This document shows, one piece after another, positions 26,648 through 45,966 of a DNA stretch of 45,966 nucleotides. A program made the translations under genes and the position numbers. Within the stretch, counting starts at the first letter, position 1. Each line of letters starts with the position of its first letter. The notes below the pieces were generated by a model, which saw only the letters and a program-made list of their open reading frames with translations, did no database searches and was not told the origin of the DNA. Source of the DNA: a virus; IMG/VR virus record IMGVR_UViG_3300046413_000426, positions 1 to 45,966 of that record. One strand, given 5' to 3'.

Positions 26648-28198
26648 ATGAATTTTATAACTAGGTTTTTTAAAAAAATTAATAACAAAGAAATGGAAAA
26701 AGTTAAATATTATTTACCTGGAATTAAGGTAAAATGCATTAGTGCATACTGTAGACTAGGAGAAACTGCTACAGTTGTGCGTAAAATAAATGATTATGAT
26801 GCAGTTTATATCAAATATGACTCAGATGGTTCTGAAGATACAGCTCGTTTTGGTACGAATGGTAAGTATGATCTAGGGTTTGTAGATTCTCAAGATGAAT
26901 TGCTACAGATAGCAATTGAGAAATATGATGGAAAATCATTTACATCATTATCAGGTACAAATTATCAGAATTTCAAACCAGTCAAGGCAAAATGGATCAG
27001 TGGTCATAAATTTGATATAATTCTTGATGATAAGGATGAGCGTAGTGCACATGTCTATGAATCAGGTCAATGGGCTAAATTAGAATCACCATCTGACGAT
27101 GTATCTGATATCAGAGTGGGTGAAACGATTAGAATTAAGCCTCAAAAGGAGCGTACATTGTTTTCATATTGTAATGTGAAACCCACTGCAGGATATGCAA
27201 CTCATAATGGTTGGGCAGCACACGATAATTTAGAACATGAAGTTAAAGATGTTTATTATGCTAAACAGTTCAATAGCTGGTTCTATAAAATAGATTGCAA
27301 ATATGGCGATGATGATAGTCATTGGTATGCATCAGATGCTGTTGAGCTTGTTAAAGCTCCTGAATCAAAAGGAGAGTGGTTATTTGAGGAAGTATTTCCT
27401 GAAGAGGGACAATGTAAGACTATTACGCCTGAATTAGAAGCATATTTACGCAAGACAAGAACTCCAGAAGGAGACCAAGCTCAGAAAGATAAAGCAAAAG
27501 CTATTTGCTGGAATCACAAGGGTTATTGGTATGTTTCTCGTAGTTCTCAAAAGCAAGAATATATAATTACTCAATTGTCGAAATTTTTCACACCAAAACA
27601 AGAACAACCTATGGAGCCACAAGATGCCCAACAGTTTGATTACACACCACAAGGTGGCTTTCAGTTAACACTTCCTCCTGAAATTGTAGGAGCAGCATTA
27701 CAACAAGCTACACAAACACATTTCAGAGAGTCTGAGAAGAAGTTTGAGAAGCATCGTGAAGATGTTGCTGCCTTGATAGACAAGAAGAAGCAAATGATTG
27801 AGACAGAATTATATCAGAAGTTTGAAAAGACTATCGGATGTGATTTTGTAGAGTTCAAGACAAAAGTTGTAGAAGACTATTTGACTTCTAAGCAAGTTGT
27901 TATTGAGCTAGGTCAAGACAAGAAGTATGAGTTCTCTCTTGAGGACAAGCATGCAGAATTACCAAAGATGGTAACATTTCTACAGTTGTTTAAGCAAGCT
28001 ATGATTGTAGGTCCATCAGGATCAGGTAAATCAACTATGGCTAAGCAAGCAGCTGAAGTTATGGGACTACGCTATGGTGCATTCTCTTGTAATCTAGAAG
28101 CATCTAAGTCAGAGTTAGTAGGTTTTGCTAACATTGACGGTTATGTAGAGTCTTCATTCTTAGATTTCTATGAGAACGGTGGTGTATTCTTGGTGGAT
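26648..28198 (+). CDS. MoxR/CobS-type AAA+ ATPase, exon 1
   Basis: First 517 codons of a gene split by a group I intron. N-terminal ~1-260 hold repeated beta segments of unknown fold (KVKCISAYCRLGETATVVRK; then GETIRIKP...WYASDAVELV, SH3-like). A helical linker (~330-420) leads to the AAA+ core: Walker A GPSGSGKST (~456-464), then GVFLVD, half of Walker B, ending exactly at the aspartate. Unspliced, the frame reads two more codons to a stop. MoxR/CobS ATPases remodel proteins together with VWA partners; such a partner follows exon 2. ATG at 26693 (MEKVKYYLPG) is an alternative start. Confidence 0.8.
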
Positions 28199-28401
28199 GA
28201 ATTATAAAACTCGTCCGTACTTATTTAATTGCTGGAAGCCCTAAAGCCGAGATAGCTACAACGTAACCATGAAATATAGGTAAGCGTGAATGCTAAAAAT
28301 ATCAAGGATGTAAATGGGTAATCAGCAGGGAAGCCCCGAATAGGGGAACCTTCAGAGACTATCTCCTTTGTAGGAGAGTACAAATATTTTTAATCAATTT
28401 A

Positions 28402-28434
28402 TTTGGAAAAGGTAAGAATTATTTTGTATATTGC
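28402..28434 (+). promoter_or_regulatory. Possible promoter for the intron endonuclease
   Basis: TTTG (28402-28405), 21-base spacer, TATATTGC (28427-28434), a partial match to TAnnTTTG, lies 27 bases before the endonuclease start and would uncouple its expression from the host gene. Confidence 0.35.
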
Positions 28435-28461
28435 ATACATGATATCATACATGTAAGCTTT

Positions 28462-29214
28462 ATGAAAACTGGTAGAATTTATTGTTTAATTGATCCCTTT
28501 AGTTACGAAGTAAGGTATGTTGGTTTTACAACTAACACCTTAGAAAATCGTTTTTCAAGTCATAAGTACGAAGCCTTAAAAAGAAAAGGTCCTACTTATA
28601 AAGATAAATGGTTTAGAAAATGTGCTAAACAAGGAAAAATTCCTATAATATCCTTGTTAGAGGATAATATTCCATTTGATAAATGGGAAGAAAAGGAAAA
28701 CTATCATATTGGTAAGTACAATAACTTAACTAATATAAGAGCTGGAGGACACGGTATAATTGTTGATAGAACACAAAGTTCTGTTGATTCTTCTAACGAA
28801 TGTAGAAAAAAGGCAATAGTTCAATTAAACATTGATGGATCTTTTGTTAAACAACATGACAGCATAAGAGATGCTGAGAGAGAATTAGGCTTTATAAGAA
28901 GCTCTAGAATTGGTGTAGTTTGTAATAAGAAAGCATATTCAGCTTATAATTACAGATGGGCATTTCTAGAAGATTATGAAAAAGGCGAATTACCTATTTA
29001 TGTTGATAAAAAACAAAAGTATCTTGATAGAAAAAATGGAATGTCTCAAAAAATAATGGTAATTAATACATTAGATCCTAGTGATATAAAGTATTATGAT
29101 TCTATTGTTGAGTTTGGTAAAGTAATTTCTCCAAACAATATTGAGCCAGGAAAAGTTTTTATATCTAAGAAAACTGGTTTAGTTCAAAACAAATACAAAA
29201 TAATTAAGATATAG
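28462..29214 (+). CDS. GIY-YIG homing endonuclease (intron-encoded)
   Basis: Encodes 250 aa. GIY-YIG core: GRIYCLIDPFSYEVRYVGFT (RIY...YVG), then Arg in ENRFSSH, catalytic Glu in WEEKENYHIG and Asn in LTNIRAGG. A NUMOD1-like DNA-binding region follows (IVQLNIDGSFVKQHDSIRDA ... SAYNYRW), and a second related repeat may lie at ~185-240. The enzyme cuts intronless alleles to drive intron homing. Its last codons overlap the 3' strand of P7, so gene and ribozyme are interlocked. Confidence 0.88.
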   Translation: MKTGRIYCLIDPFSYEVRYVGFTTNTLENRFSSHKYEALKRKGPTYKDKWFRKCAKQGKIPIISLLEDNIPFDKWEEKENYHIGKYNNLTNIRAGGHGIIVDRTQSSVDSSNECRKKAIVQLNIDGSFVKQHDSIRDAERELGFIRSSRIGVVCNKKAYSAYNYRWAFLEDYEKGELPIYVDKKQKYLDRKNGMSQKIMVINTLDPSDIKYYDSIVEFGKVISPNNIEPGKVFISKKTGLVQNKYKIIKI

Positions 29215-29292
29215 TCCGATCCTTTGGCGAAAGCCTTAGATGGTTTTTTATGTTAAGATGATAACTTAGCTAAACGAAAACCTAATTTTATG

Positions 29293-29781
29293 GAGTATGA
29301 TTCTATGTCTCCATCTATTGCTGTAGTGTTAAATGCTGCGTTCGATAGAACTGGTATGATCGCTGTACCAAACCGTAAGGATAAAACTATAGCTAAGAAG
29401 CACAAAGATTTCTATTGTATTCTGGCTGGTAATACCTGGGGTTCTGGTTCTGTAGAATATCAAGGGCGTGAGATGCAGGATGCTGCCTTCTTAGATCGTT
29501 TCAAGATGTGTCGTATCTTCATTGATTATGATGAGAAGCTTGAGAAGAACATTGCTGGTAAGCATTATCCATTCTTCAAGAAGATTCGTGATTATGTCAA
29601 CAAGAAGGTAGATGGTGAGAACTTCTCAACTCGTTCTATGTATGATGCTACAATGCTATTGGAAAATGGCTTTAAGCAAGAGAACATCTTAACTATGATC
29701 TCTGAACATTGGGATGAAGCATTGCGTAAAGACTTATTCAAGACTATGAAGGTTGAATATGACTATACAACAGCAGCATAA
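29293..29781 (+). CDS. MoxR/CobS-type AAA+ ATPase, exon 2
   Basis: Final 162 codons, starting with GAG TAT GAT. Spliced product is 679 aa. EYDSMSPSIAVVLNAAFD completes Walker B and gives the 'D-x-x-x-P' segment usual in MoxR/CobS; NTWGSGSVEYQGREMQDAAF plus LDRFKM provide sensor and arginine-finger-like elements. The rest is a helical lid. Without splicing it could start only at ATG 29290, lacking the P-loop. Its stop overlaps the VWA-like start (TAATG), indicating co-translation. Confidence 0.8.
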   Translation, partial: EYDSMSPSIAVVLNAAFDRTGMIAVPNRKDKTIAKKHKDFYCILAGNTWGSGSVEYQGREMQDAAFLDRFKMCRIFIDYDEKLEKNIAGKHYPFFKKIRDYVNKKVDGENFSTRSMYDATMLLENGFKQENILTMISEHWDEALRKDLFKTMKVEYDYTTAA

Positions 29782-30644
29782 TGAGAATAGTTAAAGAAGA
29801 GAAGAAAGTTTTTCACATGTATTTTGATTCTGTAGATGATTTCTTTCAACATAGTGATGCAAGAGCATTATTAGCAAAAGGTATAAGCCATTTGCCTGAT
29901 AATAATCGAGATCACATTAAAGAAATTGGAGACGGAGATGAGAGAAGTTGGAGATATGCAGAGGAGAAAAACAAAGATCAGTTTGAAAAGACTAGATTTG
30001 ATCCTAACAAAGGTAAAACAATGTGTGCAGATGCTGTTAAATCAACTATGGCTGATAGAAGCTATAAGAAGTTGATGGCTAACGCTATGACATATCGTAG
30101 AAAACCTAAGTTTCAGGATGTAGGATCTAGACTATCTGTCCCACGAGCTATAGCTGGTGAGGATAAATACTTTGTTAGTCTGAAGTCTGCAAGAAAACCA
30201 ACAGTGAAGATTGCTATTAACATTTGCGGGAGTGCAAGTGTTGATGCAGCAGCGTTTAGAAGAGTGGCAGAAACAGCTATTCCAACCATTTATGCGTTGG
30301 AACAAGCTGGTATTACCACTGAAGTTTATTATTGTGCGTTTTCTACAAGAACCCATCCAGATTTTGATCATAGTCAACTATCTGTAAAAGTTAAATCAGC
30401 CCAACAACGATTCTCTTGGACATTATTTGCTCCAGTGTTTTGTGTTGGTAGCTATAGAGATAACATCTTTACAGCATGGAGTAACTGTGATGAGGAAACA
30501 AGCAGCGGATTAGGTTGTCCAATGAATGAGTCCACTATCGAAGAGTTTGATAACTTTGGATATGATTCTGTGATTGGTCTTAATGCTGTAGGTCCTGTAG
30601 AAAACGTAGGCTCTATTTTTAGTAAAATAAAGCTTAAAAAATAG
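29781..30644 (+). CDS. VWA-like partner of the AAA+ ATPase
   Basis: Encodes 287 aa. A helical charged N-terminal part (~1-120) precedes an alpha/beta domain: VKIAINICGSASVDAAAFRR, IPTIYALEQAGITTEVYYCA, resembling VWA folds as in CobT/MoxR partners. The usual metal-binding D-x-S-x-S is replaced by N-I-C-G-S, so the MIDAS looks degenerate. Coupled by TAATG to the ATPase gene. In CobS-CobT and MoxR-VWA pairs the VWA protein delivers or adapts the substrate; here the target is unknown. Confidence 0.6.
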   Translation: MRIVKEEKKVFHMYFDSVDDFFQHSDARALLAKGISHLPDNNRDHIKEIGDGDERSWRYAEEKNKDQFEKTRFDPNKGKTMCADAVKSTMADRSYKKLMANAMTYRRKPKFQDVGSRLSVPRAIAGEDKYFVSLKSARKPTVKIAINICGSASVDAAAFRRVAETAIPTIYALEQAGITTEVYYCAFSTRTHPDFDHSQLSVKVKSAQQRFSWTLFAPVFCVGSYRDNIFTAWSNCDEETSSGLGCPMNESTIEEFDNFGYDSVIGLNAVGPVENVGSIFSKIKLKK

Positions 30645-41210: not shown

Positions 41211-41915
41211 ATGATAAATATTAATGCAAATCTTAAACCTTCTGTTTATAAACTAGTAGAAGAAATATCAAAAATCAGAAATAAAAGTATATCTGATACG
41301 ATAGATGAACTATTGTCTGAACATTTGTATCAAATTAATAAAAAAGATACTAATGAAACTGAAGTAGTATTTGATGAATCTAAAGAGGTTTGGAAAGATG
41401 TACCAGGATACGAAGGATTGTATCAAGCTAGTAACTATGGTAGAATAGCATCTATTAGATATGGATTTAAAATAAGATCTATTGTTAGGAATCCTACTGG
41501 TTATTTACAATGCGCATTCAGAGTAGATAATAAAACTAAAACATTTTTAGTACATGTTATTGTTGCAAATACATTTCTTTTGAAATGTGAAGATTGTACT
41601 CAAGTCGATCACATTAATAATGTTAAGACAGACAATAGAGCAGATAATTTAAAATGGGTTACCAGAAGTGATAATATGAAAAATAATTATTATAGAGGAG
41701 TAACTACTGTAGAAAAACAAGGATCTAAAGGTAAAAGAATTGAAATACTTGATTTACAAGACAATAGTCTTGGGATATTCAATTCATTAAAAGAAGCAAC
41801 TTTAGAATTTGATGTAAGTCACGGTAACTTATCTAGTATATGTAATCCTTATGCAAGACTAAAAACCACATTTAGTAAAAGTAAACAAATACGAATTAAA
41901 GCAAGATTATTATAA
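41211..41915 (+). CDS. Homing endonuclease: RHH-like start, NUMOD4, HNH, NUMOD1-like end
   Basis: Encodes 234 aa. Residues ~1-42 (NLKPSVYKLVEEISKIRNKS, ISDTIDELLSEHL) look like a ribbon-helix-helix or similar DNA-binding unit. NUMOD4: EVWKDVPGYEGLYQASNYGR. HNH: HVIVANTFLLK, QVDHINNVKTDNRADNLKWV (H/N/N), then TRSDNMKNN. C-terminal NUMOD1-like (ILDLQDNSLGIFNSLKEATL). Free-standing after the DNA polymerase stop, with its own promoter; no intron in the polymerase gene is needed. Confidence 0.8.
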   Translation: MININANLKPSVYKLVEEISKIRNKSISDTIDELLSEHLYQINKKDTNETEVVFDESKEVWKDVPGYEGLYQASNYGRIASIRYGFKIRSIVRNPTGYLQCAFRVDNKTKTFLVHVIVANTFLLKCEDCTQVDHINNVKTDNRADNLKWVTRSDNMKNNYYRGVTTVEKQGSKGKRIEILDLQDNSLGIFNSLKEATLEFDVSHGNLSSICNPYARLKTTFSKSKQIRIKARLL

Positions 41916-45052: not shown

Positions 45053-45282
45053 TAACACCAAAAGAAAAAGCATATAACCTAATAGGAAAATTTATAATGT
45101 TAGATACACATGATGAAGATTCATTTATAATTAGACAGCACAGAGCAAAGCGATACGCATTACTTGCAGTGGATGAAATGATTGCATTTGTAAAACACGC
45201 CTTCAGTTATATCAATATTGAATTGGCAACACCATCAATTGTATATTTAGAGGAAGTTAAACAAGAAATAGAGAAGCTATGA
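45049..45282 (+). CDS. Small protein between loader and helicase genes
   Basis: Encodes 77 aa: MITPKEKAYNLIGKFIMLDT, SFIIRQHRAKRYALLAVDEM, YLEEVKQEIEKL. The 'KAYNL...' opening and 'K-R-Y-A-L-(L/I)-A-V-D-E-(M/I)' stretch occur in small Bacteroidota-phage proteins. Overlaps both neighbours by four bases, so co-translated with the loader and helicase. Confidence 0.6.
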   Translation: MITPKEKAYNLIGKFIMLDTHDEDSFIIRQHRAKRYALLAVDEMIAFVKHAFSYINIELATPSIVYLEEVKQEIEKL

Positions 45283-45966
45283 GTTTTCAAGATTTAAAAT
45301 TAGCTGTAGAAGATGGCTTGAGTGGTAAGAACGGTGGTATACCGATGGGGTTTGATAGACTGAATAGATACATTGGTATTCGTAAGTCTATGTACACTCT
45401 TGTAGGTGGACTAACAGGTTCTGGTAAAACCTCATTCATCGATGATGCGTATGTACTAAATCCATTTGATTGGTCTTTATCACCAGAAGGAATTGCTTCT
45501 GGGATTAATGTAAAGATTATCTATAGATCAATGGAGCGTAGTAGAACCTATAAGTATGCCAAATGGATTGGCAGAAAGATCTTTCTAGATCATGGAGTTA
45601 TTATTCCTGTAGGAAAGATGTTAGGTTGGACTGATAAGATGAGTCATGATGAGCATGATTTGTTTTTACAGTATGAGGAGTATGGTGAAATGATGAAAGA
45701 GAAGATCACTATCATTGATGGACCAGATAATCCTGTAGGTATAGCAAAGCAACTCAAAGAACATGCTATGGAACGTGGTGAAGTTATTGAAGTGGATAAA
45801 TGGAATAGAAAGTATATTGCCAATGATCCTAATGAAATAACTCTTGTGGTTGTTGATCACATCGGTTTGCTCAAGCTTACCAAAGATCATCCTACAAAGA
45901 AAAGTTCTATAGACAAGATGTCTGATGAGCTACGCTACGCCAGGGATTTCTACGGTTATTCACCAG
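45279..45966 (+). CDS. DnaB-type (SF4) replicative helicase, partial (3' end outside window)
   Basis: 229 codons are visible; the gene continues past the right edge. It begins MSFQDLKLAVEDGLSGKNGG then IPMGFDRLNRYIGI, directly before Walker A GGLTGSGKTSFIDD (~44-57). Walker B ITLVVVDHIGLLK lies at ~190-202. The N-terminal primase-binding domain of cellular DnaB is absent, as in many phage helicases. A hexameric DNA-unwinding role at the fork fits the neighbouring polymerase and loader. Confidence 0.8.
   Translation, partial: MSFQDLKLAVEDGLSGKNGGIPMGFDRLNRYIGIRKSMYTLVGGLTGSGKTSFIDDAYVLNPFDWSLSPEGIASGINVKIIYRSMERSRTYKYAKWIGRKIFLDHGVIIPVGKMLGWTDKMSHDEHDLFLQYEEYGEMMKEKITIIDGPDNPVGIAKQLKEHAMERGEVIEVDKWNRKYIANDPNEITLVVVDHIGLLKLTKDHPTKKSSIDKMSDELRYARDFYGYSP

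Follow-up and report, generated by a model that had tools for sequence, protein, structure and literature searches.

A viral contig of 45,966 nt, analysed over its whole length and referred to here as the window, carries a group I intron between the Asp and Glu codons of the Walker B motif of an AAA_5/CobS-like ATPase gene, and four introns with related endonucleases split SF2 helicase genes at the identical codon boundary. We consider it likely that the window intron is a mobile group I intron of a lineage that has specialised on the Walker B Asp-Glu codons and has crossed from SF2 helicases to an AAA+ ATPase.

The intron and its host gene

The features of the locus, all on the + strand, are the following.

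26648..28198, +, ATPase exon 1, AAA_5/CobS-like, C-terminal end FLVD (translation)
28010-28036, +, Walker A motif GPSGSGKST of the ATPase, in exon 1
28193..28218, +, P1, exon GTGGAT (28193-28198) with guide GTCCGT (28213-28218), U·G at the splice site
28199..29292, +, group I intron, 1094 nt
28209..28212, +, P10 strand ACTC, partner exon 2 GAGT (29293-29296)
28220..28416, +, P3-P7, 5' part of the ribozyme core (Rfam alignment)
28357-28362, +, P7 5' strand GACTAT, within the 5' core
28363-28367 and 28372-28376, +, core hairpin CTCCT / AGGAG, within the 5' core
28417..28426, +, P8 5' strand AATTATTTTG, partner CAAAATAATT (29196-29205), a 10-bp stem
28462..29214, +, GIY-YIG/NUMOD1 homing endonuclease ORF, 250 aa, in the P8 loop, stop TAG in P7
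29211-29216, +, P7 3' strand ATAGTC, pairs with GACTAT
29222-29239, +, P9 hairpin CTTTGGC-GAAA-GCCTTAG (sequence and Rfam alignment)
29293..29781, +, ATPase exon 2, EYDSMSPS... (translation)

The sequence places the 5' splice site after T28198 and the last intron base at G29292, in agreement with the boundaries and with the P1 and P10 pairings of the original prediction. Comparison with intronless relatives alone leaves the junction ambiguous by up to 2 nt (a shared GA), and its position is fixed because the U·G and terminal-G rules settle this ambiguity. The joined exons translate in frame to FLVD-EYDSMSPS, so that the insertion separates the Walker B Asp codon from the Glu codon, as had been claimed. 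The Rfam group I model (Intron_gpI, RF00028) aligns in two pieces, the 5' core at 28220-28416 (42.9 bits, E 3e-9) and a 3' part ending at 29239 (24.6 bits, E 9e-4), separated by the 753-nt endonuclease ORF. Both pieces lie below the 50-bit gathering score, which is a score threshold and not a biological feature, and at that threshold the whole window gives no match to Rfam. The P3-P9 catalytic core, the P7 pairing, stems backed by covariation, the splice-site U·G, a P1 with internal guide and the terminal G are all present, and together with the Rfam matches and P10 they bear out a group I intron at this position. The last endonuclease codons double as the 3' strand of P8 and as a portion of P7, where the stop codon (TAG, 29212-29214) is embedded in the strand ATAGTC, again as first noticed. 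The intron is predicted to self-splice from the ATPase transcript, giving the normal protein.

The spliced ATPase, with Walker A and Walker B both present, matches Pfam AAA_5 (E 1.2e-11, 45.2 bits against a cut-off of 22) and phrog_249 (E 1.3e-42; labelled porphyrin biosynthesis, CobS-like), and its best relative among solved structures is CobS (E 1.8e-6). The motifs LAGNT and LDRF of exon 2 are read as sensor-1 and arginine finger. The label "MoxR-type" given to this protein is correct if taken to mean the AAA_5 group; phrog_249 and the CobS structures are the named families that come closest. Exon 2, used as query against IMG/VR, returned 19 relatives (67-93% identity), all of which lack the intron and read [VI]DEYD through with no stop; a look for intronless homologues of this kind was the check proposed with the original prediction. 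Between the spliced ATPase region and the intronless relatives dN/dS is about 0.07-0.13, values that point to purifying selection on the spliced protein. Presence and absence at one site, as expected of a mobile intron, are seen for the window against these 19 relatives and for Flavobacterium phage FPSV-D18 against its siblings (see below).

Two further observations concern the neighbourhood of exon 2. The intron ends in ATG (29290-29292), in frame with exon 2, and the same is found in FPSV-D18; an ORF caller consequently places the start of a 163-aa gene there, and inspection by eye showed no Shine-Dalgarno sequence before this ATG. The gene directly 3' of the ATPase (29781-30644, + strand) encodes a DUF7192 protein, which by its position may be compared with the VWA-type proteins that partner MoxR/CobS ATPases.

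The intron-encoded endonuclease

The window protein scores 19.0 bits with Pfam GIY-YIG (cut-off 22.6). Among the five members of the intron-borne family this profile matches three (best E 2.2e-6) and NUMOD1 matches all five. In an alignment of 10 endonuclease relatives, residues Y7, Y19, G21, R30, E77, E79 and N91 are invariant. The AlphaFold model has a confident N-terminal domain, and the best fold matches of the model include GIY-YIG nucleases and I-HmuI, none of them at E 0.001; model and alignment together support a GIY-YIG fold carrying the conserved Y, R, E and N.

Searches for close relatives of the endonuclease with single sequences gave none or one short match, and tblastn matched only three phage records, the best being the unannotated Flavobacterium phage FPSV-D18. 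The family was recovered with two alignments as queries (A1, built from three endonucleases, and A2). The scan with the three-endonuclease alignment found the IMG/VR contigs L260, L261 and L262, and the second alignment scan contributed nothing beyond L303, which is a near-identical copy, and endonucleases that are freestanding; a scan of genome contigs found no relative. In the tree (IQ-TREE, 30 sequences) the intron-borne endonucleases form one clade (support 99/94), with the window protein nested inside it and grouping with those of L260 and L261 (92/82), the closer link to L261 being weak (86/30). The remaining endonucleases in the tree are freestanding, as far as their contexts were read.

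The window encodes a second homing-type endonuclease (41211-41915, + strand), an HNH protein of phrog_59 placed 3' of the DNA polymerase gene, whose C-terminal part weakly matches the same endonuclease profile.

Related introns in SF2 helicase genes

The four nearest intron-borne relatives lie in FPSV-D18 (MW442830, locus L021) and in contigs L260, L261 and L262, and the hosts are in every case SF2 helicases (Pfam ResIII/DEAD/Helicase_C). Their Walker B motifs are split between Asp and Glu, as GVLD-ECHN (FPSV-D18), FVCAD-EIHN (L260), FFIVD-EFHS (L261) and LVIMD-ECHR (L262), against FLVD-EYD in the window; the codon boundary is identical in the five genes.

The FPSV-D18 endonuclease ORF sits in an intron core 72% identical to that of the window, and in all five introns the ORF is placed in the P8 loop and P9 is closed by a GAAA loop. 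P1 is fully paired throughout (exon/guide GTGGAT/GTCCGT, TTGGAT/GTCCAA, GCGGAT/GTCCGC, GTGGAT/GTTCAC and ATGGAT/GTCCAT), although shuffling of exons and guides among the five is weak as statistics, with 6 of 120 permutations tied. In some of the other introns P10 is weak or missing. In P8, six of the seven counted pairs vary on both sides. Over P1, P8 and P9, 98% of the cells are paired and 14 of 20 pairs show two-sided changes, against 6 in shuffles, a count that is partly circular and leans towards structure because pairing was itself what guided the selection of the stems by eye. With Rfam, L021 has no match reaching E 0.001 and L260-L267 have none even at E 0.1; the identification of L021 and L260-L262 as introns comes from blast likeness together with covariation. 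By blastn each of the five cores is connected to the others, either directly or by way of L262, and the tree of the ribozyme cores does not group them.

FPSV-D18 also has, at L021 1-540, another endonuclease-like ORF followed by a second intron-like 3' end (AAGATATAGTCCGAT); DNA polymerase-like sequence comes immediately after.

A silent exon footprint in P1

The intronless siblings of FPSV-D18, FpV21 and FPSV-D5, encode a helicase that is 100% identical in protein sequence. Between -1500 and +829 of the insertion, FPSV-D18 differs from both only at -7, -6 and -4; the three changes are synonymous, and each of them contributes a base that P1 needs to pair with the guide. A similar picture is obtained in the window, where the only differences from the nearest intronless relative (L002) between -84 and +34 are at -4 and -1, both synonymous and inside P1. 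All five intron-bearing alleles have G at -4, a base that is absent there from the 30 intronless loci read, of which 19 are ATPase and 11 helicase loci. The simplest reading of these alleles is that a very short exon stretch was co-converted along with the intron; an exon I bias of co-conversion is known for GIY-YIG enzymes, I-TevI among them (PMC2988022).

Target specificity and origin

By mechanism, the element is best read as an ordinary homing intron. The endonuclease would cut an intronless Walker B site, and repair would copy in the intron along with the short exon stretch paired to the guide in P1, which would make the new splice site functional and leave the protein unchanged. A move to a non-homologous ATPase could then proceed by illegitimate repair or by reverse splicing at the short Walker B sequence that the genes have in common, both being proposed routes of homing introns into non-homologous genes; illegitimate repair at microhomology has been put forward as an entry to ectopic sites (PMC2988022). 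We further hold it somewhat probable that the lineage parasitises a protein motif and not a gene, its endonuclease targeting the DNA of the Walker B Asp-Glu codons and letting the intron cross P-loop NTPase superfamilies, from SF2 helicase to AAA+, while the silent P1 footprint carried along enables new splice sites.

Donor and recipient sites can coexist in the phage lineage of the window, since related phages carry, 3' of a DnaB-like gene and with the same neighbours, a helicase orthologous to the host of the L261 intron in an uninterrupted frame. The window ends inside its DnaB-like gene (45264-45965, + strand), and the phage's own helicase would therefore lie just outside. The lineage is known from only five independent insertions, one of them in an AAA+ gene, and the presumed direction of transfer is from helicase to AAA+.

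How far the target itself is recognised was addressed with a matrix built from the four helicase sites. The window site (-10 to +19) ranks 14 of 89,686 positions, but with P1 masked it ranks about 1084 of 89,656, and exon 2 alone about 860 of 89,706; these masked ranks indicate a likeness to the target that is real at the DNA level but modest. Pattern scans for GGAT/GTCC, which served as control only, showed introns of other lineages in the wider ribozyme family, with the same guide, at varied motifs, among the matches listed, after LDANG, INSAYG, GVDWD, MTDAD and others; the guide by itself is thus not enough to select Walker B.

An ordinary phage homing intron might also have reached the same position as the helicase introns by coincidence or convergence, through the preference of homing endonucleases for conserved codons and the ribozyme's need for a T before the splice site. 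It is established that phage introns insert in functionally critical codons (PMC2988022, PMC3984707, PMC2814812), and the ungrouped ribozyme cores and the modest target likeness outside P1 would fit such an origin. However, the five endonucleases form one supported clade, every member of which is at the same codon boundary, introns of other lineages with this guide occur, among the matches listed, at many different motifs, and the window offers only 20 GGATGA sites on both strands; we consider this alternative unlikely.

A variant of the proposal based on collaborative homing, in which a Walker B-specific GIY-YIG gene invaded a group I intron of another lineage already resident in the ATPase, is likewise improbable. 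The window core is 75% identical to the Str-PAP-1 intron and 72% to that of FPSV-D18, and the core tree does not settle the relationships, which leaves room for it. On the other side, none of the 19 ATPase relatives has at this site an intron without this endonuclease, the ORF lies in the P8 loop in all five introns, and the cores are interrelated in blastn. As the core tree groups nothing, a jump of the whole intron and a hop of the endonuclease are not separable, and within the preferred reading, a Walker B-specialised lineage that crossed superfamilies, what moved may have been the endonuclease, into a different intron, and not the intron as a whole.

The unspliced product

The original prediction held that the unspliced product lacks a complete Walker B motif and that splicing could act as an on/off switch for the ATPase. 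The first point is incorrect: the intron starts with GAATTATAA, and because it opens with GAA the unspliced frame, ...FLVDEL before the stop, keeps both acidic residues. What this product lacks is the second, downstream half of the AAA domain, and it is probably inactive for that reason and not for the one first given. Before their stop codons the five unspliced frames end in DEL (window), D (L021), DRLLSA (L260), D (L261) and DELYVHLKPL (L262), so that Glu is kept in two (window, L262) and lost in three, with no common design. In favour of a regulatory switch, the unspliced transcript gives a protein cut off inside the AAA domain, but with Asp and Glu retained in the window, the five ends unlike one another, all 19 related phages managing with no intron and no sequence sign of regulated splicing, such a role is highly improbable.

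Comparison with known systems

The open-access literature searched contained no report of one intron lineage at the Walker B motif of different ATPase superfamilies. What makes the present case interesting is that the lineage keeps to one motif across protein superfamilies and carries a silent footprint in the exon; the case suggests that a short catalytic motif common to many enzymes can suffice as a foothold for a mobile element. Target specificity, co-conversion and ectopic transfer become measurable in a natural setting, given five related introns that occupy one codon boundary in genes of two ATPase superfamilies and a set of Flavobacterium phages that are nearly identical but either have or lack the intron.

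The closest counterparts are the introns of FPSV-D18, L260, L261 and L262, which have in common with the window the related GIY-YIG/NUMOD1 endonuclease in P8, the insertion between Asp and Glu and GGAT before the splice site; their hosts are SF2 (ResIII/DEAD) helicases, whereas that of the window is an AAA_5/CobS-like ATPase. The T4 td intron is hosted by the thymidylate synthase gene. Like the window intron, it is a phage group I intron mobilised by a GIY-YIG enzyme, I-TevI, with exon I-biased co-conversion (PMC2988022), but it has one target gene, and cleavage takes place 23-25 nt upstream of the insertion, in contrast to a silent footprint of about 4-7 nt here. The Twort, Stau2, ICP1 and Str-PAP-1 introns have ribozyme cores 71-80% identical to that of the window over short stretches; their insertion sites differ, and the annotated endonucleases of the Twort and ICP1 loci are HNH proteins. 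In Vibrio phage ICP1 (L022 1001-1292) the group I intron, upstream of the HNH endonuclease ORF80, scores 77.9 bits, above the Rfam threshold, and the record carries no intron annotation there. The intron of Bacillus phage SPO1, with I-HmuI, resembles the window in its NUMOD-like C-terminal region and its insertion at a conserved site, but its nuclease is HNH and its host a DNA polymerase gene. Inteins at ATPase P-loops are likewise mobile splicing elements that favour ATPase motifs; they act by protein splicing and at other motifs, whereas the element described here is an RNA intron at the Walker B Asp-Glu boundary.
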